A stretch of DNA of 22,363 nucleotides from a virus. The stretch is taken from IMG/VR virus record IMGVR_UViG_3300023079_000011, positions 1 to 22,363 of that record; one strand, 5' to 3'. The notes below the pieces were generated by a model. The model made no database searches, was not told the DNA's origin, and saw only the letters and a program-made list of their open reading frames with translations. This document shows, in pieces, positions 2,721 to 9,695 of the stretch. A program made the translations under genes and the position numbers. Numbering within the stretch: position 1 is the stretch's first letter; each line of letters begins with the position of its first letter.

Positions 2721-3194
2721 ATGAACCTACAGGACGCAGCAAAATACGTCATCGGCAAACGCACCGAGCCGCTCCCGGCGCTGGTCGCCTCGATCAAGCG
2801 CATTCTGAAATTTCCGCAGGAGCGCGCCAACCGCCTCGCCCGCTACGTCATCATCACCCGCGCCTATCAGAAAGGCGAAGGCGTCGATCAGATCCGTGCC
2901 CGGTTCGGTTGCGCGCGCAGCACCGTGCTGCGGTACGCCCGGATGGCCGGACTGCCGACGCGGCCGAAGCACTTTCCTGCCGACGTCCGCCGCGCCGTGA
3001 TCCGCGACTACAAGGCCAAGATGCCGGTCGCCGACATCGCCCGGCTGCACGAGGTCAGCCCGGCCTATGTGTCAAAGATCGCCCGCGAGCAAGGCATATC
3101 CCGCTACGACCCGCGACCGAAGAAATCGAAGGCCCGGCATGCAAAGAATCCGAGTCCCAAGGCCCGTCGCCGCCGTGTAGGCTCCCGGCCGTAA
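2721..3194 (+). CDS. DNA-binding protein with two HTH motifs, 157 aa
   Basis: Two homeodomain-like helix-turn-helix segments are visible: residues about 52-78 (GEGVDQIRARFGCARSTVLR) and about 92-126 (MPVADIARLHEVSPAYVSKI). Each has the pattern of resolvase or transposase DNA-binding domains. The tail from 131 to 157 is strongly basic (Lys/Arg-rich), suited to non-specific DNA contact. No catalytic domain is present, so this is a binding protein only, perhaps a regulator. The ATG at 2721 is used; the frame extends upstream to 2430, but that stretch overlaps the zinc-ribbon gene. No strong ribosome site is seen. Confidence 0.75.
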   Translation: MNLQDAAKYVIGKRTEPLPALVASIKRILKFPQERANRLARYVIITRAYQKGEGVDQIRARFGCARSTVLRYARMAGLPTRPKHFPADVRRAVIRDYKAKMPVADIARLHEVSPAYVSKIAREQGISRYDPRPKKSKARHAKNPSPKARRRRVGSRP

Positions 3195-3210: not shown

Positions 3211-3555
3211 ATGCGTTCTGGGCCGTCGATTGTTCCGGGTTCGCCCGAAAATTTTTATATCGTCCTCAACCACTATGGCAGGCACGGCGTCGCGTTTGCT
3301 GAGACCGACATCGAGCGCGCCGACTACGAGACCACCATTTCCGACTTGATAAGCGGCCAGTACAGCGCTCCGCTCCGGGTGATCATGTTCAACCCGGAAA
3401 CCAACCGATCAGAGGATGTCTCGGTCGCGGTGGCTCAAGAGGTGCTGCGCCGCCTCGGTCTGGAGGATCGCCCGGTGCCGCGCGAGCTGGAGGATTTCAT
3501 CGACCGCTATGTCGGTCCGGACCGTCAGCTCACGATGCGACTTAACATAGGTTAG
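3211..3555 (+). CDS. Conserved hypothetical protein of rhizobial type, 114 aa
   Basis: The ATG at 3211 is preceded by GGAG at a six-base distance; a TTG two codons upstream (3205) is possible but badly spaced for that site. The protein opens with a turn-rich stretch and FYIVLNHYG, then an acidic alpha/beta middle and an amphipathic C-terminal helix (AQEVLRRLGLEDRPVPRELEDF). It looks like a short conserved protein I associate with Bradyrhizobium genomes, where its role is unknown. It is convergent with the ligase gene and their stop codons overlap in TTAG (3552-3555). Confidence 0.75.
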   Translation: MRSGPSIVPGSPENFYIVLNHYGRHGVAFAETDIERADYETTISDLISGQYSAPLRVIMFNPETNRSEDVSVAVAQEVLRRLGLEDRPVPRELEDFIDRYVGPDRQLTMRLNIG

Positions 3556-4151
3556 AATTGATCCAGCACGCGGCGGAACGCCGGGTGCTTCGGGTTCTTG
3601 GTCTTGAGCCAATGCGTGCAGCGCCCGCCCCCGTAAGCCCGCTGGCTATGCTTCGACACCAGTCCCTCCAGCCCCATCAGGCAGGCATGCCGGAATAAGT
3701 CTGGACCGATCTCACCCTGTTCGAACGACGCGACGAAGATGCCCTGCGACCGCCGCGCGAGCAGCCGAGCGAGATTCGTCTTGCGCAGTGAGAGCGGCAG
3801 TCGGCGAAGGTCGTCGCCCTCACCCGCCAGCATGTCGAAGGCGTAGAACTGAGCCTCGTGATCGTGCTTGCGGGAATGCAGCGCCCGGAAGTCGGAAATG
3901 CCATCCACCCCGAGCACGACGGTCTCGCCGTCGAGGACGAACTGCTTCTGCCGGATCTGGCGCGCGGTCTCGACGATCCACGGATACCGCTTCGACCAAT
4001 CGTGCCCGCCCTTGGTGCGCAGGCGCACGTTGTCGCCGTCCCGGATCAACATCATCCGGTAACCGTCATGCTTGATCTCGTGCAGCCAGTCCGGGCCAGC
4101 CGGGGTCTTCTCCGTTTTTACCGGAAGGGCAAATTCAAGGGCTTTCGACAT
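3552..4151 (-). CDS. ATP-dependent DNA ligase, adenylation domain only, 199 aa
   Basis: All catalytic motifs of the covalent nucleotidyltransferase fold are present in order: motif I KHDGYR with nucleophile K27, motif III LDGE (73-76), motif IIIa FYAFD (102-106), motif IV EGLVSK (162-167) and motif V WLKTKN (181-186). At 199 residues it ends after motif V and lacks the C-terminal OB-fold with motif VI, which most ATP-dependent ligases need for step one of the reaction. Similar stand-alone domains, close to the LigD ligase domain, occur in rhizobia. It runs opposite to its neighbours. A likely promoter (4158-4185) ends about seven bases before the ATG, and no clear ribosome site is seen, so the mRNA may be leaderless. 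Confidence 0.85.
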   Translation of the reverse strand: MSKALEFALPVKTEKTPAGPDWLHEIKHDGYRMMLIRDGDNVRLRTKGGHDWSKRYPWIVETARQIRQKQFVLDGETVVLGVDGISDFRALHSRKHDHEAQFYAFDMLAGEGDDLRRLPLSLRKTNLARLLARRSQGIFVASFEQGEIGPDLFRHACLMGLEGLVSKHSQRAYGGGRCTHWLKTKNPKHPAFRRVLDQF

Positions 4152-4157
4152 GGGTCG

Positions 4158-4185
4158 AAGATAGTCATTTCGGCCTATACGGCAA
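4158..4185 (-). promoter_or_regulatory. Ligase promoter containing a TAGGCC dyad
   Basis: Read leftward, a -35-like TTGCCG (4185-4180) is followed after 16 bases by a -10-like TATCTT (4163-4158). TAGGCC-GAAAT-GACTAT (4177-4161) fills the spacer, beginning two bases after the -35, exactly as in the 5397 promoter. The right half-site is degenerate. The start point would fall at or very near the ligase ATG. Confidence 0.5.
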
Positions 4186-4344
4186 GAGGACGAAAAAAAG
4201 TTTTGCCGCTAGACAGTCGTCACTTTTTCTCGCCGCCCCGCCAACACCGCACACCGCTCGCCCTGCGTTTTCCGCGTCAACAACTTTTTTCGAAACGCGT
4301 TTGCGCCTTGCCCGCTAGTGTTCCGCTGCGCCGAATTGGTCCTA

Positions 4345-4378
4345 TAGGCCGATTTGGCAAAAGTCGATTTGCTATACT
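4345..4378 (+). promoter_or_regulatory. Extended -10 promoter with TAGGCC dyad upstream
   Basis: TGCTATACT (4370-4378) is a good extended -10 element. TAGGCC-GATTT-GGCAAA (4345-4361) lies just upstream, where a -35 would be contacted. The left half is intact and the right half degenerate. CCTATAGG (4341-4348) adds a second, overlapping palindrome that shares the TAGG of the left half-site. The predicted transcript starts near 4385 and feeds the gene at 4437. Confidence 0.55.
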
Positions 4379-4436
4379 GCGTGTGTCAGTCGGGAAGTTC
4401 GGCTGCAGGCTGTTTGACAATGTGAAAGGAAAATGA

Positions 4437-4763
4437 ATGCCCATTAAATATGAGTGGGACATCGAGACCGTGGCTGCGGACGAGGACGAGGACATCCTCG
4501 ACCACGATCACCGGGACAAGCTGTCGGAGTTCGGGGTTGAGGAGTTGATCTTCGCGATTGCTCAGCAGCCCGGACCGGACAGCAAGGGCGATACCTTCCT
4601 CCGGTTGGTGCTGGTGCGGGATCGTCTCGACGACGGCGGCGTGGTCTGCCGGTCGTGGGCCTACGTGACTGACGACGGCAAAATGCCCGAGCAGTTTCTG
4701 GACGCCTACGAGCGGCCGGTCGCGAAAGTGCCGAAGCGCTTCATCGAGGAGTTTAATCGATGA
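4437..4763 (+). CDS. Acidic hypothetical phage protein, 108 aa
   Basis: The start follows AAAGGAAA. The first 40 residues are very acidic (AADEDEDILDHDHRDKLSEF), followed by a mixed alpha/beta core with FLRLVLVRDRL and a helical end (EQFLDAYER). No cysteine cluster, membrane span or known motif is seen. It is the first gene of a two-gene unit whose promoter and dyad lie at 4345-4378, and it overlaps the cysteine-peptidase-like gene by ATGA (4760-4763). That tight pairing suggests the two products work together or are needed in fixed ratio. The family is not recognised. Confidence 0.7.
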   Translation: MPIKYEWDIETVAADEDEDILDHDHRDKLSEFGVEELIFAIAQQPGPDSKGDTFLRLVLVRDRLDDGGVVCRSWAYVTDDGKMPEQFLDAYERPVAKVPKRFIEEFNR

Positions 4764-5293
4764 AGTGCGTCTACGACGACGGCGGTCGAAAGGCCGCCGG
4801 ATACAAGGGCCACGCGGGCGACTGTGTCGCGCGCGCGATCTGCATCGTCACCGGGCTGCCCTACGCCGACGTCTATGATCGGCTGGCGCAGGGCAACGCG
4901 ACCCAGCGCGCGTCCAAGCACAGCCGACGCCACAACACGACGCACGGCGTCGCGACGGCTCGCCACGGGATCTGGGTCAAGCGCAAGTGGTTCAAGGACT
5001 ACATGCGCGAGCTGGGGTTCGTCTGGACCCCGACGATGCAGATCGGTCAGGGCTGCAAGGTGCATCTGGCGGACGGCGAGCTGCCGCCCGGCAGGCTGGT
5101 CGTCTCGGTCAGCAGGCACTACACGGCGGTGATCGACGGCGTGATCCACGACACCTTTAATCCGTCACGGAGCACGAGCTGGACCATCGAGCCGGACAAG
5201 GGACAGGCGTTGAAGGCCAACCAAGGCCGCAACGAAAACGGCGTCTGGACCGAGGTCGGCGGCCGGTGCGTCTACGGGTACTGGTCCGTATAA
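4760..5293 (+). CDS. Putative papain-like cysteine peptidase, 177 aa
   Basis: A GDCVARAI motif places C22 at the start of a helix, as in papain-fold enzymes. H120 follows in SRHYTAVIDG and D131 in VIHDTFNP (N134 nearby), giving the Cys-His-Asp order and spacing of a catalytic triad. The ending VYGYW is a strand often closing such phage proteins. I recognise the pattern as a recurrent phage family with no established substrate. There is no signal peptide, so it would act in the cytoplasm. It ends the 4437-5293 unit, just before tandem hairpins. Peptidase activity is inferred, and a deamidase or transglutaminase-like role is equally possible. Confidence 0.65.
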   Translation: MKCVYDDGGRKAAGYKGHAGDCVARAICIVTGLPYADVYDRLAQGNATQRASKHSRRHNTTHGVATARHGIWVKRKWFKDYMRELGFVWTPTMQIGQGCKVHLADGELPPGRLVVSVSRHYTAVIDGVIHDTFNPSRSTSWTIEPDKGQALKANQGRNENGVWTEVGGRCVYGYWSV

Positions 5294-5294
5294 A

Positions 5295-5317
5295 AAGCGT
5301 TCCAGACCTGAACGCTT
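5295..5317 (-). terminator. Leftward hairpin terminator
   Basis: AAGCGTTC (5295-5302) and GAACGCTT (5310-5317) form a perfect 8-bp stem with a 7-base loop. Read leftward, the stem runs into a short U-rich tail (complement of the A run at 5292-5296), so it can stop antisense transcription. Read rightward it has no U tract. Confidence 0.5.
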
Positions 5318-5348
5318 ATGCCCCAGAAGAAAGACTCCAATCAAAACA

Positions 5349-5385
5349 GGCCGTTCCGGCTCCCCCGGAGCGGCCAACTTTTTTT
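5349..5385 (+). terminator. Strong rightward intrinsic terminator
   Basis: GGCCGTTCCGG (5349-5359) pairs with CCGGAGCGGCC (5365-5375) through 11 base pairs, one of them G-U, around a 5-base loop. AAC and seven T residues (5379-5385) follow. This is a textbook rho-independent terminator for the 4437-5293 unit, and it isolates it from the promoter that begins at 5397. Confidence 0.9.
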
Positions 5386-5396
5386 GATATGACCCA

Positions 5397-5425
5397 TTGA
5401 CCGCTAGGCCAAAACGGCCTATATC
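5397..5425 (+). promoter_or_regulatory. Sigma-70 type promoter with operator in its spacer
   Basis: TTGACC (5397-5402), a 17-base spacer and TATATC (5420-5425) make a good housekeeping promoter. The spacer is almost wholly a perfect palindrome, TAGGCC-AAAAC-GGCCTA (5405-5421). A protein bound there would block RNA polymerase, so this reads as a repressor operator. It drives the operon starting at 5453, whose ribosome site AGGAGG lies at 5442-5447. Confidence 0.75.
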
Positions 5426-5452
5426 TGACTGGTCAGGAAAGAGGAGGACGGG

Positions 5453-5608
5453 TTGTCGAGTTACTGGAGCTACCGCCCCGCGTCACCGACGCCGGAATAT
5501 CATGAGGTGCCGGAAGGCGCTTTCAAGGGGAGCGAAAAGCAATGGCACGCTCTGCCGCCCGGCATGCGCCGCGAAATCGTCCGTTCGTTCAAGGTTAAGG
5601 AAAAGTAG
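5453..5608 (+). CDS. Small hypothetical protein with TTG start, 51 aa
   Basis: A perfect AGGAGG (5442-5447) stands five bases before TTG at 5453, which decides the start; no ATG occurs until codon 38. The product begins SSYWSYRPASPTPEYHEVPE and ends with a basic helix (MRREIVRSFKVKEK), in all a small aromatic, proline-rich protein. It is the first gene of the operon driven from 5397, and the strong ribosome site with a weak start codon suggests tuned expression. The next gene starts two bases after its stop. Function unknown. Confidence 0.65.
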   Translation: MSSYWSYRPASPTPEYHEVPEGAFKGSEKQWHALPPGMRREIVRSFKVKEK

Positions 5609-5610
5609 AT

Positions 5611-5829
5611 ATGGCTGCGAAGAAATACAAGTTGGGTTCGAACGAAGCGGTCTACGCCCCCGGCATGGTGGCTTGGGCGATCAACGGCGCGGCCTTCAAG
5701 AGCGATGCCCCGCAGATGATCAAGGTGATCGCAGCGGGCTGGAACGTCCCGGCCGAGGCGGCCAAGGCCTTGGTGATGAAAAAGGTGCCCTACAAGATCG
5801 AGGGCGAAGCGGTGGTGTTCGAAGCGTGA
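5611..5829 (+). CDS. Small hypothetical protein, 72 aa
   Basis: The ATG follows AAGGAAAAG inside the end of the preceding gene. The sequence is a basic start (AAKKYKLG), a central helix with APGMVAWAINGAAF and a second helix, then a short strand pair (KVPYKIEGEAVVFEA). The two helices are only moderately hydrophobic, so I do not call a membrane span. It overlaps the exported-protein gene by GTGA (5826-5829), so those two are probably made together. The family is not recognised. Confidence 0.65.
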   Translation: MAAKKYKLGSNEAVYAPGMVAWAINGAAFKSDAPQMIKVIAAGWNVPAEAAKALVMKKVPYKIEGEAVVFEA

Positions 5830-6203
5830 TCAACAGCCTCAAAAATGCGCTGATCCTGATCAACGGGCTGATCGCCCTCGCCCTAACCACAAATGTCGCT
5901 CAGGCCGATGCAATCAACCTGTTTAAGGCTGCTCCCAGTTACGTCCAAGAAGCCTTCTACCGGGACGCATGCGAGGAGCGCGAAAAAAGCGAGTGGGAAG
6001 ACTACGGCAATGCGCAGTCCGACGACGAGCGCAGAGCGGCAATCCTCCCCGGCCTTGGCTCGCTGTCCATATCGGCCAGCAAAATCTACTTCGTCGTCAG
6101 CCGAGCATACGACAAAGAGATCGACATCTTGAATACGCCCGAGGATGAACTGATTAAATTATCTAACGAGTTCTGCCACGCCGCCAAGCGAGTGATGAAA
6201 TGA
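5826..6203 (+). CDS. Exported small protein, 125 aa
   Basis: The chosen start is GTG at 5826, overlapping the previous stop (GTGA). The same frame stays open back to 5397, but that part overlaps two genes. Residues 5-29 form a signal peptide: a basic/polar start, a hydrophobic core (ALILINGLIALAL) and an AQADA cleavage region. The mature part is charged and helical with two cysteines, C49 and C117, able to form one periplasmic disulfide. Export to the periplasm by an accessory-region phage gene suggests action on the host envelope, for example exclusion of other phages, but nothing in the sequence proves that. Confidence 0.7.
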   Translation: MINSLKNALILINGLIALALTTNVAQADAINLFKAAPSYVQEAFYRDACEEREKSEWEDYGNAQSDDERRAAILPGLGSLSISASKIYFVVSRAYDKEIDILNTPEDELIKLSNEFCHAAKRVMK

Positions 6204-6469
6204 GGAGCGAAGTGAGCGAGACCTACAAGGAGCGCGTCAACCGCTGGCGGATTATGCGCCACGACGAATTGCCGGAAGCCCACAAGGCCGAGTATCGCCT
6301 GTCGGGAATCAACCCGGATGACCTATGGTCTCTGATCTGGTCGTTCGAATCCGAAGACGAGGCGCGTCGGTGCCTCGCAGAGTGTGAGATCAACAAGGCG
6401 AGCTGGCAAACCCACAAGCTGGTGGACGGCGGCGAGGCAATCGAAATCGAGAGGAGCGTTTGGTTATGA
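6200..6469 (+). CDS. Hypothetical protein, 89 aa
   Basis: The ATG overlaps the preceding stop (ATGA); a GTG at 6212 after GAGCGAAG is an alternative. The protein is helical and charged at first (KERVNRWRIMRHDELPE), then has a region with SLIWSFESEDEARRCLAEC and a final strand pair ending IEIERSVWL. The segment FESEDEARRCL resembles helices that follow a strand in small ferredoxin-like folds. Cysteines 58 and 62 are close, but without partners they do not make a metal site. The family is not recognised. Confidence 0.65.
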   Translation: MRSEVSETYKERVNRWRIMRHDELPEAHKAEYRLSGINPDDLWSLIWSFESEDEARRCLAECEINKASWQTHKLVDGGEAIEIERSVWL

Positions 6470-6786
6470 GCGACTACAAGGAATATTCGGCAATCCCGGC
6501 CTACGAGCAGGCCGTTTACGAGAACGGCATGCCGGTCAAGCCGCCGGAGGGCGGATTGATCTGGGCTGGCAAGGACGGCTTTCAGCCGCCGCCGGTCGGA
6601 TCGAAGGTGATGGTGGCGATGAACGGCCTCGGCGAGGCGGAGGTCAAGGGCTACTTCTCGCAGGAGGGTTACCTCGGCCTGCTGGTCGTGATGGACAACG
6701 CGCCCGACTGGTACGTGAAACAGAACGGCGACGCCAAGAAGGTCGGCCACGTCTTCGGCCCCGAAGTCAAAGCGCTGGAGGCGTAA
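6466..6786 (+). CDS. Hypothetical protein, beta-rich, 106 aa
   Basis: ATG at 6466 overlaps the previous stop (ATGA); a TTG at 6460 closer to GAGGAG would add two residues. The second half has alternating strands and glycine turns: PVGSKVMVAMNGLGEAEVKG, then LGLLVVMDNAP. This pattern suggests a small SH3-like or other beta barrel of the sort seen in many phage accessory proteins. There is no catalytic motif, signal peptide or cysteine. It is separated from the next gene by four bases. Confidence 0.65.
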   Translation: MSDYKEYSAIPAYEQAVYENGMPVKPPEGGLIWAGKDGFQPPPVGSKVMVAMNGLGEAEVKGYFSQEGYLGLLVVMDNAPDWYVKQNGDAKKVGHVFGPEVKALEA

Positions 6787-6790
6787 ACCG

Positions 6791-7000
6791 ATGAAGGTGA
6801 AAGTGATCAAGAGCGGTGACATCTACCGGGTCATCGCCGAGCTGCCGAACGGCGAGCAGCGCAAGCTGACCGAAGCGACCGCCGGGATCAACGAGGAGAA
6901 GGCCAAGAACGATTGCATCTGTTACGCCCAAGGCGCGGCCGAAGGCTGGAATCTGTCGCTGCAGATGTTCGGCCGCGCCAACGTCTTCATTGAACTGTGA
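6791..7000 (+). CDS. Hypothetical protein, 69 aa
   Basis: The start follows GGAGG in the end of the preceding gene by ten bases. Three strands (KVKVIKSGDIYRVIAEL and QRKLTEAT) lead into a helix (NEEKAKNDCICYAQGAAEGW) and a final strand, giving a beta-beta-alpha layout of a compact fold. C42 and C44 are the only cysteines. No family is recognised. It ends at 7000, directly followed by a GTG and, nine bases later, the ATG of the next gene. Confidence 0.65.
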   Translation: MKVKVIKSGDIYRVIAELPNGEQRKLTEATAGINEEKAKNDCICYAQGAAEGWNLSLQMFGRANVFIEL

Positions 7001-7009
7001 GTGAATCAA

Positions 7010-7204
7010 ATGGCTGATCTATCGATCCAGAACGAAGGCAACATTTTCATCCTGCGTGCCCTCACCGACGCGGGCAAGCAGTGGGTGGCGGAGCACGTCC
7101 CGGCCGACGCGCAGACGTGGGGTCCGGACGGCGTCGTGGTCGAGCACCGCTACATCGGCGACCTCGCGCAAGGCGCGGTCAACGACGGGCTGGAGGTCGA
7201 GTGA
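7010..7204 (+). CDS. Small hypothetical protein beginning MADL, 64 aa
   Basis: ATG at 7010 gives a protein starting MADLSIQNEGNIFILRALTD; a GTG at 7001 would add three residues. The ribosome site is weak for both. The sequence has an early strand, a helix (AGKQWVAEHVP), then WGPDGVVVEHRYIGDL. The Trp and the final strand suggest a compact alpha/beta unit, possibly structurally related to its neighbours, which share the MADL opening. It overlaps the next gene by one base (TGATG). Function unknown. Confidence 0.65.
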   Translation: MADLSIQNEGNIFILRALTDAGKQWVAEHVPADAQTWGPDGVVVEHRYIGDLAQGAVNDGLEVE

Positions 7205-7422
7205 TGGCCGATCTCGTCTTCGACAAGATCACCAGCATCGACAAGCAGGACGGCGGTCAGGCGCTCATTGTCGAGCTGAGCGTCTCCGGCACCGAAGACG
7301 ACGAGGAGGGGCTCTTCGTTCGCGTACAGAGCTGGAGCACGACGGCCAACCATGCCGCGCTCAATGCCCTGCTGAAATCTGGCTTCACCGTAACGATCAA
7401 GGAAAACTCCGCCAATGGCTGA
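7204..7422 (+). CDS. Small hypothetical protein beginning MADL, 72 aa
   Basis: The start at 7204 overlaps the previous stop in TGATG. The protein opens MADLVFDKITSIDKQDGGQ, continues with a strand (ALIVELSVSG), an acidic loop (TEDDEEG) and a strand (LFVRVQSW), and closes with a helix and strand (NALLKSGFTVTIKE). This is an open alpha/beta arrangement with no motif I can name. It overlaps the next gene by 8 nt (7415-7422). An in-frame start at 7081 would lie inside the preceding gene and is rejected. Confidence 0.65.
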   Translation: MADLVFDKITSIDKQDGGQALIVELSVSGTEDDEEGLFVRVQSWSTTANHAALNALLKSGFTVTIKENSANG

Positions 7423-7552
7423 CCTATCCAAAGCCAGACGCCGCCGCCGGATCGAGATCATCAAGATCCTGTCCGATATGTCGCGCGACTGGTCACGTTG
7501 GACCGCTGCCGACTGGCAGCCGCTGGAAAGCGAACTGAAGGAATTGTCGTGA
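7415..7552 (+). CDS. Very small basic protein beginning MADL, 45 aa
   Basis: ATG at 7415, in the end of the previous gene and after AAGGA, starts a 45-residue protein. It opens MADLSKARRRRRIEIIKILS and continues with a tryptophan-rich helix (DWSRWTAADWQPLESEL). The run of five arginines suggests contact with nucleic acid or acidic protein. It overlaps the next gene by GTGA (7549-7552), and the gap-free packing is the main evidence that it is translated. Too short for family assignment. Confidence 0.55.
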   Translation: MADLSKARRRRRIEIIKILSDMSRDWSRWTAADWQPLESELKELS

Positions 7553-7809
7553 ATCCCCTCGTCCTGCCTCAAGTCAATCTCAACGGCACGTCGCGCGAGG
7601 AGCTTGTCTCCCAGCAACTCCGCGTCATGGAAGCGCTCCACTCCACATACCTCTCGATGAACGACGCCGCGCCGAACGGGCGCGACTACCAGCTCCGCCC
7701 GGCCGAGTTCGCGCCCGCGCGCGAGGCGTGGGACGCGCGCATGCTGGTCGTTCACAACATGCTCAAGGAGATCGAGGCGCACGCGCTGGCGATACAGGAC
7801 AGCAAATAA
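7549..7809 (+). CDS. Conserved phage hypothetical protein, 86 aa
   Basis: GTG at 7549 overlaps the previous stop (GTGA) and gives a protein starting MNPLVLPQVNLNGTSREELV. The pattern N-L-N-G-T-S-x-E-E-L, then PNGRDYQ and a long C-terminal helix (AREAWDARMLVVHNMLKEIE), matches a small protein I have seen widely in phages and prophages, function unknown. It looks like a helical bundle that could bind another protein. It is the last gene of the 5453-7809 operon. No terminator hairpin follows before the next promoter region at 7815, so readthrough is likely. Confidence 0.75.
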   Translation: MNPLVLPQVNLNGTSREELVSQQLRVMEALHSTYLSMNDAAPNGRDYQLRPAEFAPAREAWDARMLVVHNMLKEIEAHALAIQDSK

Positions 7810-7814
7810 TCAGC

Positions 7815-7835
7815 TAGGCCGTATTGACCTATGAG
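7815..7835 (+). promoter_or_regulatory. TAGGCC dyad at the head of the 7884 operon
   Basis: TAGGCC-GTATT-GACCTA (7815-7831) has one mismatch between its arms. TATGAG (7830-7835) overlaps its right edge in the place occupied by the -10 in the 5397 promoter; the matching -35 position (7807-7812) reads TAATCA, which is weak. A promoter here would start transcription near 7842, upstream of the ATG at 7884. Confidence 0.55.
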
Positions 7836-7883
7836 CCGCGCAAGCGTAAAGAACGCGGTAAGGAAAACGAAAGGGACCGACAC

Positions 7884-8234
7884 ATGCCAATGATGACACA
7901 GGCCGAGCTGGAGCCGTTGCAGCAAATTCGCCGCACCGCCGAAGAGTACAGCGACGCCATCCGCAAGATCGCCCTCGCCCGCCGCGATGCGCTGCCGCCG
8001 ATCCACCGCATGATCGACGCGCCTGCCGGTGCCATCGAGGAGCATGACCGCTTCTCCAAGCTGGAGGACATCGTCGGCGCGCTGCAAACGATCTATGACG
8101 CGGTCTCCGAACTGGAGTTCGAAGAGGAGCAGCCCGAAGAGCCCGCCCCGCCCGAGCCGCCGGAAGATCCGGAAGAGCCGGAAGACGAAGACGGCGAAGA
8201 GGACGAGGAAGAGGACGAGGACGACGACGAATGA
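7884..8234 (+). CDS. Protein with very acidic C-terminal tail, 116 aa
   Basis: ATG at 7884 follows AAGGGA; an upstream TTG at 7824 would start inside the operator/promoter and is rejected. Residues 8-76 look like paired helices (EPLQQIRRTAEEYSDAIRKI and SKLEDIVGALQTIYDAVSEL). From 77 to 116 the chain is nearly all Glu, Asp and Pro, ending in about fifteen acidic residues. Such tails occur on DNA-mimic proteins, histone-like chaperones and single-strand-binding-protein partners. The purine-rich DNA here (about 8118-8233) is low-complexity and may vary in length between relatives. First gene of its operon; overlaps the next by ATGA. Confidence 0.7.
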   Translation: MPMMTQAELEPLQQIRRTAEEYSDAIRKIALARRDALPPIHRMIDAPAGAIEEHDRFSKLEDIVGALQTIYDAVSELEFEEEQPEEPAPPEPPEDPEEPEDEDGEEDEEEDEDDDE

Positions 8235-8812
8235 TGGACATGGAAGCAACAGCCGCCCGCATGGCCGAGTTCAACGCGCGGGCGGATCTCAAAACGCTGA
8301 GTCCGATCCGCCGCGAGATGGAGATGATGAAGGCAGCATGGGGCTCACGCCCGATGATCGAATTCATGCTGCAGCACGGGCGCGACTACCGGATCGGCCC
8401 CGACACGTTCGCCGGTCCGCGTGGCGAACCGAAGCGATGCTACATGAACGCCAGCCAGCTTGCCTTTGAGGCCGAGCTTTATGGTCGGGATCTGACCTAC
8501 GTCGAGGGCAAGGTTCTGACGTGCGGCATCACTATCGACCACGCATGGTGCATCGATGCCGATGGCACCGTGATCGACCCGACACTGGAGGAAGACAGGA
8601 CAGACTTCGCCGCCGTCGTCGGTTATTACGGCGTGCCGTTCAAGACCCCCTATCTGCGCAAGGCGACGCTCGCCAACGGGCACTACGGGTTGCTCGACAT
8701 CATGTCCGCGCCCAAGACGCTGCCGCAACTAATCGAGCTGGGACTGGAGGCCGGACAGCAGTGGCTGCTCGACCAAAAGAAGCCGCTCCGGCGGAAGCGG
8801 AAGGCGGGCTGA
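8231..8812 (+). CDS. Putative Cys-His-Asp (papain-like fold) protein, 193 aa
   Basis: C70 in RCYMNASQLAFE heads a helix, H104 lies in the strand TIDHAWCIDADG, and D116 follows in TVIDPTLEE. This Cys, HAW, DPT order is the layout of transglutaminase-like or papain-like phage proteins in which the HAW strand and the DPT aspartate complete a triad. The region between (LTYVEGKVL) is a typical strand before the histidine. No signal peptide. The enzyme class is inferred from three residues and their spacing; no substrate can be proposed. It shares no obvious sequence similarity with the other candidate at 4760-5293. It overlaps its neighbours by ATGA and TGATG. Confidence 0.6.
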   Translation: MMDMEATAARMAEFNARADLKTLSPIRREMEMMKAAWGSRPMIEFMLQHGRDYRIGPDTFAGPRGEPKRCYMNASQLAFEAELYGRDLTYVEGKVLTCGITIDHAWCIDADGTVIDPTLEEDRTDFAAVVGYYGVPFKTPYLRKATLANGHYGLLDIMSAPKTLPQLIELGLEAGQQWLLDQKKPLRRKRKAG

Positions 8813-9285
8813 TGGCTGGCGACTGTGGAAGCTGCACCGCGTGCTGCCGGGTCTATGCGATCCCGGAGCTGAACAAGCCCGCCGGGCCGTGGTGCCAGCA
8901 CTGCGCCATTGGCGAGGGCTGCAAGGTCTACGAGCAGCGCCCTGCGCTATGCGTCGATTTCCAATGCCTCTGGCTGCAGAGCCGCACGCGCGAGGACAAG
9001 CGCGACCATCTGCCCGACGAGCTGCGGCCAGATCGTTGCAAGGTGGTGTTCTCGCCGACGACCAACGAGAAGATTATGGCTGCGATCACGATGCCCGGTG
9101 CGCCGCTGGCGTGGCGACGCGGCCCGGCGCGCGATCTGATCGACAAGATGGTGAGGGCCGGACTGAATGTCGTGGTCGGTGGACCGGCGACAACGCGCAA
9201 GACGATGGTCAACAAGAAGGGCGAGCGCGAAGTCGAGATGACCGAGCCGGACGAGACTGGCATGCAATGGAGCGTTGAGTCGTGA
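8812..9285 (+). CDS. YkgJ-like cysteine-cluster protein, 157 aa
   Basis: The N-terminus carries C5-x2-C8-x2-C11-C12 (CGSCTACC), then C28, C31, C37 (GCKVY), C47 and C52 (CVDFQCLWL). This matches the 634-1272 protein almost position for position, so the two are paralogues. The C-terminal 100 residues differ: here a basic segment (RRGPARDLIDKMVRAG) and a polar end. Family members are thought to hold zinc or an iron cluster; a role is not established. The start overlaps the upstream stop in TGATG, and the stop overlaps the next GTG start. Confidence 0.85.
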   Translation: MAGDCGSCTACCRVYAIPELNKPAGPWCQHCAIGEGCKVYEQRPALCVDFQCLWLQSRTREDKRDHLPDELRPDRCKVVFSPTTNEKIMAAITMPGAPLAWRRGPARDLIDKMVRAGLNVVVGGPATTRKTMVNKKGEREVEMTEPDETGMQWSVES

Positions 9286-9695
9286 ACGAAAAGCCGATGA
9301 TCCTGTCGAACTATGACCCGCTGGCGGACACGGTGATCTTCCACAACGACCGGGGCTCGTGGAACGTGTCGCGCGCGTTGCGCGACTGCCGCGCCGGAAA
9401 GCATCAGACCTATCTGATCGACGTGGCCGAAGCCTACGAGGCCAATAAGGCCTGCGAGGTGGACGAGGTCAAGGTGCAGCGCTTCCTGAAGAACCCCAAG
9501 AAAGCCTTCAAGGAGCCGGTGCTCGGCGTCATCGAGGACGGCGCGACGTGGTTCATCGACGGTCACCACCGGCTGCGCGCCCTGCATCGCGCAGGCATCA
9601 AGGAATATGCCGCGTGGATTATAGAGGAAGCGGATTCGAAACCGTACATCGTTTGGTATAACGGCGAGCGCAAGCCGCCGTTTGAGCTGTATTGA
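9282..9695 (+). CDS. ParB-like domain protein, 137 aa
   Basis: GTG at 9282 overlaps the preceding stop (GTGA). Residues 93-100 read DGHHRLRA, preceded by VIEDGATWFI. This is close to the G-x-R-R/H-R-x-x-A box that binds nucleotide in ParB/sulfiredoxin-fold proteins, and matches the HHRL variant seen in phage proteins. Only this N-terminal-type domain is present; there is no HTH or dimerisation domain of a partition ParB, so plasmid-style partition is unlikely. Known activities of such small domains include CTP or ATP binding and nuclease action. A good GAGGAGG follows near its stop for the next gene. Confidence 0.7.
   Translation: MNEKPMILSNYDPLADTVIFHNDRGSWNVSRALRDCRAGKHQTYLIDVAEAYEANKACEVDEVKVQRFLKNPKKAFKEPVLGVIEDGATWFIDGHHRLRALHRAGIKEYAAWIIEEADSKPYIVWYNGERKPPFELY

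Follow-up and report, generated by a model that had tools for sequence, protein, structure and literature searches.

Why do four transcription units of one virus, one reading leftward and three rightward, begin at the same short inverted repeat? The stretch in question, called the window here, is a 22,363-bp virus record (IMGVR_UViG_3300023079_000011), a fragment encoding Mu-like tail proteins, a DNA ligase and many small proteins. A first-pass annotation placed four TAGGCC-N5-GRC sites in it and proposed that one protein may switch all four units. The four 17-bp dyads were located where it put them, in promoter gaps. The single-switch proposal is supported by comparative evidence, since the dyad recurs in related phages, is scarce in bacteria, is identical to an operator of the plasmid repressor KorC and co-occurs with a KorC-like helix-turn-helix (HTH) protein, and it can be made more precise as a putative KorC-like system. 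On conjugative plasmids, KorC silences anti-restriction and other genes after DNA entry. We consider it likely that a single KorC-like HTH repressor, encoded by the phage, uses all four dyads as its operators and governs an autorepressed regulon.

Four dyads and their promoters

The promoter features of the window are as follows.

4158-4185, minus strand: site-1 promoter-operator of the ligase gene, read from the sequence; -35 TTGCCG at 4185-4180, dyad TAGGCCGAAATGACTAT at 4177-4161, -10 TATCTT at 4163-4158.
4345-4361, plus strand: site-2 dyad, TAGGCCGATTTGGCAAA, upstream of an extended -10; based on matrix rank 3, its place in a gap and conservation in the related contig L028.
4370-4378, plus strand: site-2 extended -10, TGC-TATACT, identical in L028.
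5397-5425, plus strand: site-3 promoter-operator; -35 TTGACC at 5397-5402, perfect dyad TAGGCCAAAACGGCCTA at 5405-5421, -10 TATATC at 5420-5425, 17-bp spacer.
7815-7852, plus strand: site-4 promoter-operator; dyad TAGGCCGTATTGACCTA at 7815-7831, one change from perfect, enclosing -35 TTGACC at 7824-7829; -10 TAAAGA at 7847-7852.

The window was scored with a matrix of 60 sites taken from other phages. Site 3 ranks first (27.5 bits), site 4 second (26.4) and site 2 third (11.2); the matrix maximum of shuffled windows averaged 1.1 bits and reached 12.9 at the largest. The first-pass annotation had named matches as frequent in genes as in gaps as the outcome contrary to its idea, and this was not found for these three stronger sites, all of which lie in gaps (5.6% of the window). 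Weakest of the four is the ligase site, in seventh place with 3.5 bits. When up to three mismatches are allowed the window holds 22 matches, with 5.9 ± 2.7 expected, but these loose matches lie mostly in GGCC-rich coding sequence, prove little alone and are not counted as evidence.

The module seen across phages has a consensus of about CTTGACrTA-TAGGCC-N5-GGCCTA-TAT, in which the dyad occupies the spacer between -35 and -10. Site 3 is a complete module: TTGACC, two bases, then the dyad, whose final TA begins the -10 TATATC. The -35-like hexamer that had been noted two bases before two of the dyads is indeed there, at site 3 and, as TTGCCG, at site 1. The context of site 1, CGTCCTCTTGCCGTATAGGCCGAAATGAC, fits the same module, and the site looks degenerate because one base of its right half is absent (GAC-TATCTT versus GACC-TATAT). 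At site 4 the -35 lies within the dyad, with TAAAGA 17 bp later (TATACC in L028), and its GRC (GACC) variant would follow from the overlap of operator and TTGACC. Site 2 is positioned upstream of the extended -10 (TGCTATACT). The dyads are symmetric inverted-repeat 17-mers in promoters, either in the spacer or overlapping the -35; judged as TAGGnC-N5-GnCCTA in or overlapping a core promoter, sites 3 and 4 are clear, site 2 is partial and site 1 is one base short.

By sequence, the dyad takes two positions 17 bp apart: position A covers the -35, and position B lies in the spacer. In some phages strong dyads occupy A and B side by side, for example TAGGCCGTATTGACCTA-TAGGCCAGAATGGCCTA in contig L112. 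More generally, the 17 bp abutting a spacer dyad upstream form a degenerate second dyad, with a mean of 4.55 of 10 consensus matches versus 2.50 at control offsets (75 modules).

L028 keeps sites 2, 3 and 4 at orthologous promoters, among neighbouring genes that are partly different. At site 2, which there has an extra dyad abutting upstream, the first gene of the unit (4437-4763) has an orthologue that is 87% identical. TTGACC and the dyad of site 3 are identical in the two sequences, as is TAGGCCGTATTGACCTAT at site 4. L028 has no ligase at the corresponding position but does keep the flanking leader, as would be seen if the gene and its promoter had been gained or lost together. About 145 bp of noncoding DNA between the ligase and site 2 (window 4196-4340) is also mostly conserved in L028, and exceeds what a promoter needs.

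Recurrence in phages and a KorC-like protein

Related contigs were retrieved in two ways, by protein similarity and by DNA pattern. Exact matches to TAGGYC-N5-GRCCTA number 5 in 32 kb, 5 in 12 kb, 6 in 37 kb, 5 in 53 kb and 12 in 61 kb of individual relatives. With one mismatch allowed there are 13 in 77 kb, 10 in 54 kb and 9 in 46 kb (9, 8 and 9 of them exact), the 77-kb and 54-kb contigs being near-copies. Well-covered contigs of this phage group have 5-12 module repeats each, mostly at promoter distance from a gene. The same search found no exact dyad in G402, G404, G405 or G406; L162, a locus of G402, has drifted, one-mismatch dyads in the correct promoter setting. A TTG stands exactly at the -35 place in 69 of 90 distinct dyads versus a median of 2 at other offsets, in a set partly retrieved with TTGAC, and phage loci retrieved by protein have the same layout of -35 and dyad. 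Among loci lacking the dyad, a scan for TTGAC with any palindromic spacer gave no alternative operator family.

Phages of an unrelated group, whose head genes are different, have the module too, in front of ardC anti-restriction genes. Apart from ardC in that group, the regulon genes examined are mostly without any family match. A single-dyad variant, TAGGCCCAATGGGCCTA, stands ahead of a small operon in L115 and L124-L129. A conserved block, formed by the dyad with TATACAACACATGGGAAGCGCATA and close variants, is seen at L115 3885, L124 648, L126 5397, L127 3575, L128 1792 and L129 148, where it stands before the gene of a 72-aa protein and, at the loci that were checked, before a KorC-like gene as well. 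Elsewhere, the gene at L262 4120-4650, directly downstream of a dyad, encodes an HD_4 domain protein (Pfam E=7.6e-16). The dyad-bearing contig G465 encodes a NusG/RfaH-like protein (59022-59660, or L263 2022-2660) together with integrase, GcrA-like and DnaA-domain-IV-like proteins, all assigned by eye. Relatives of the ligase in viral contigs were also considered; none has a dyad at the ligase, and two of these contigs, G400 and G468, have dyads elsewhere.

The operator itself led to plasmids. BLAST of the consensus module against phage records gave chance matches only, those listed being mycobacteriophage tape-measure genes; against plasmids, it gave the klcA promoter region of IncU plasmids. 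That promoter, TTGACA-CAA-TAGGCCAAAATGGCCTA-TTAT, carries the phage-type dyad. The anti-restriction gene klcA follows the dyad promoter, korC lies two genes later, and a further dyad precedes orf02. The action of KorC on IncU plasmid RA3 was reportedly first mapped by Ludwiczak et al. in 2013. Several promoters of one element carry the operator in phages as well: four in the window, and 5-12 exact dyads in each well-covered relative. KorC is described as a global repressor of RA3 that acts on the klcA and orf02 promoters (PMC7414963).

Most of the better-covered dyad contigs proved in profile searches to encode a small HTH protein, which in its main group has an RTxRRW recognition motif. In the group with Mu-like tails its gene follows the last dyad at a distance of 1.6-3.1 kb on the same strand, and in several single-dyad contigs the HTH frame starts within about 450 bp of the dyad. 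In the protein-retrieved set, searched with a model built from other contigs, the gene is present in 5 of 10 dyad loci versus 3 of 170 non-dyad loci, L162 with its drifted dyads being among these 3. The dyad loci that lack it are L028, the short L153, L154 and L155, and L157. When profiles were aligned with hhalign, KorC matched the phage HTH family with a probability of 97.6% (E=4e-12, over 49 columns); a different HTH family, used as control, reached 3.7%.

Proposed mechanism and competing explanations

The simplest model would be promoter occlusion with negative feedback. A repressor dimer would sit either on TAGGCC-N5-GGCCTA between -35 and -10 (B) or on the adjoining 17 bp that include the -35 (A), and would occlude RNA polymerase at ordinary sigma-70-type promoters. 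In relatives a dyad precedes the repressor gene on its own strand, often by 1.6-3.1 kb, so the protein probably represses its own gene. Incoming phage DNA would meet no repressor, all units would fire strongly, and shutdown would follow as repressor accumulates, as with KorC plasmids after transfer. We infer binding, repression and timing from these patterns, along with a repressor gene outside this fragment; we also infer the burst in phages and an anti-defence role, for which ardC in one group is the single pointer.

Several observations weigh against a KorC-like repressor at these sites. Sites 1 and 2 are degenerate. Because TTGAC was part of the pattern by which many dyad contigs were retrieved, the -35 association is exaggerated for those contigs. 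The Fisher value for co-occurrence of dyad and HTH gene, p=9e-6, overstates independence, the compared phages being partly related. Phage HTH protein and plasmid KorC align over the HTH region alone (those 49 columns), with no similarity outside it. No KorC-like gene is seen in the window or in L028, both fragments, nor in G400 (37 kb), the full contig of L157, which was examined to its end and whose first 3.6 kb likewise hold no recognisable ORF of this kind.

Of the other explanations, a classical immunity regulon survives best, yet it is unlikely. A lambda-CI-type prophage repressor would silence the promoters in a lysogen, as at the 17-bp lambda operators; 17-bp dyads in core promoters would suit this, and at least one relative looks temperate (a tyrosine integrase in G465, by eye). 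However, Peptidase_S24, which lambda-type CI repressors combine with an HTH, was found in 0 of 15 dyad records, which are partial, versus 13 of 14 control genomes. HTH_3 was above cut-off in three of the 15, with no dyad in the stretch upstream of these, and the HTH protein that does accompany the dyads is a short, single-domain KorC-like protein encoded downstream of them. G465 and G401 encode HTH_3 proteins that look PraR-like by eye. These were set aside as regulators: they occur in few records, have no dyad directly before them and are unlike KorC. PraR binds CAAC-N5-GTTG (PMC5527310), with the same N5 spacing as the dyad.

There is very little chance that the regulator is a host protein whose regulon the phages exploit. 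Presence of the module in at least two unrelated phage groups speaks for it, but the full module of TTGAC and dyad was found in 0 of 385 genomes of the class centred on a Hyphomicrobiaceae genome. Of 61 genomes from the order of that central genome, 5 contain the plain dyad, with 17 copies in total (one each in four, 13 in assembly G429), and a reversed control pattern is commoner overall in these 61, a sample that may include few hosts of these phages. The dyad is scarce, not absent, in sampled bacteria. The 13 TAGGCC-N5-GGCCTA dyads of G429 are spread over many contigs, have mostly GC-rich centres unlike the phage sites, and may reflect another system or contamination.

It is equally improbable that the dyads serve activation, or are recognised by an RNA polymerase or sigma factor of the phage. 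In favour, site 2 has no good -35, which can be true of activated promoters. Against this, most modules have a near-consensus TTGAC and TATAT at 17-bp spacing and should work unaided; a dimer bound in the spacer, where the dyad lies, generally keeps polymerase out; and identical IncU sites are in promoters reported to be KorC-repressed (PMC7414963).

With a KorC-like repressor as the favoured reading, a broader and more tentative idea can be put forward, which we regard as possible rather than probable. The KorC-type entry-burst circuit, so far described on conjugative plasmids, may be widespread in phages as a dispersed regulon of up to a dozen nearly identical promoters, whose genes would be largely unrecognised anti-defence genes; the half-site variants TAGGCC, TAGGAC and TAGGGC may then form a regulatory code with cross-repression between phages and plasmids. 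If the favoured reading is right, a circuit of conjugative resistance plasmids would also operate in environmental phages, and ardC in the other phage group would fit a role in surviving host defences at entry. The 25-bp promoter-operator signature would become a search tool, grouping dozens of uncharacterised small phage genes as an early repressed regulon. Where a resident plasmid and an incoming phage carry the same operator, each could repress the entry genes of the other.

The controlled genes and related systems

Gene calls in the window follow simple open reading frame (ORF) rules. The units headed by the four sites, and the terminator between two of them, are listed here.

3552-4151, minus strand: ATP-dependent DNA ligase, catalytic domain only, headed by site 1 (Pfam DNA_ligase_A_M, E=5.6e-21).
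4437-5293, plus strand: unit 2, genes 4437-4763 and 4760-5293, ORF-based.
5349-5386, plus strand: intrinsic terminator closing unit 2, immediately upstream of site 3; a GC-rich hairpin and T-run, kept in L028.
5453-7809, plus strand: unit 3, closely packed small genes without assigned function, from the ORF list; order partly kept in L028.
7884-9695, plus strand: unit 4, an acidic protein (7884-8234), then 8231-8812, 8809-9285 and a ParB-like protein (9282-9695).

The ligase is 66% identical to a Bradyrhizobium prophage ligase, which points to Bradyrhizobium-like hosts for this phage. The two genes of unit 2 have no Pfam match, and the ParB-like protein of unit 4 matches ParBc_2 (E=1.5e-4) slightly below the family cut-off. 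The protein at 7884-8234 ends in a long acidic run (window 8120-8234, EDEDGEEDEEEDEDDDE) that is absent from its positional counterpart in L028. A HigA-like antitoxin is encoded at 1925-2155 (NCBIfam TIGR02607, below cut-off). Neither this protein nor a two-HTH protein at 2721-3194 explains the shared operator as its regulator, because neither has homologues in dyad phages. A 72-aa window protein used as bait found no relatives.

Literature searches returned nothing relevant for TAGGCC with phage and promoter and, for KorC with prophage, none about KorC in phages by title or abstract among the matches listed. Among known systems, mycobacteriophage stoperators and SAS/ESAS repeats also place regulatory sites across a phage genome (PMC6550527, PMC3203893). 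They differ in kind: stoperators are asymmetric 13-bp sites and SAS lie at translation starts, whereas the dyads are symmetric 17-mers within core promoters, so the stoperator class was rejected. The ArdK regulon was rejected as well, being defined by direct TTGACA repeats at the -35 (PMC9723621), where the dyad is an inverted repeat in the spacer.

The anti-CRISPR-associated Aca autorepressors resemble the proposed system: the gene of a small HTH repressor lies within or behind the operon, the promoter carries inverted repeats, and a burst is followed by shutdown; in archaeal viruses, shared early promoters likewise mark anti-defence genes by a common regulatory sequence (PMC9410881, PMC11065993). 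The operator sequences of these systems are different, no anti-CRISPR gene was identified here, and archaeal promoters are of another type. A phage example is Bradyrhizobium elkanii prophage ppBeUSDA76-2 (OP596614), whose KorC-like HTH protein WAX24438 is 49% identical to a phage member; upstream of its gene stand a perfect 17-bp dyad, TAGGGC-N5-GCCCTA, and an abutting partial one. Its half-site is TAGGGC, and one such locus was seen in that phage.

The KorC systems of IncP-1 (RP4-type) and IncL/M plasmids also have a 17-bp dyad in the spacer of klcA, kleA or korC-operon promoters, with the half-site TAGGAC instead of the phage TAGGCC. In new transconjugants, expression of RP4 klcA rises about 120-fold (PMC7314908), and in pOXA-48 a KorC site is predicted between -35 and -10 (PMC12365149). 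The IncU KorC regulon (RA3, pFBAOT6, pMBUI3) shares with the phages the operator TAGGCC-N5-GGCCTA in the -35/-10 spacer of several promoters and, as a candidate on the phage side, a small HTH repressor encoded downstream of a controlled gene. The phage version differs in being found in tailed phages, with up to about a dozen sites ahead of mostly unknown small genes; its HTH protein is shorter and only distantly related, and the plasmid klcA spacer is one base longer. On this comparison of sequences, phages and plasmids appear to share one regulatory design.

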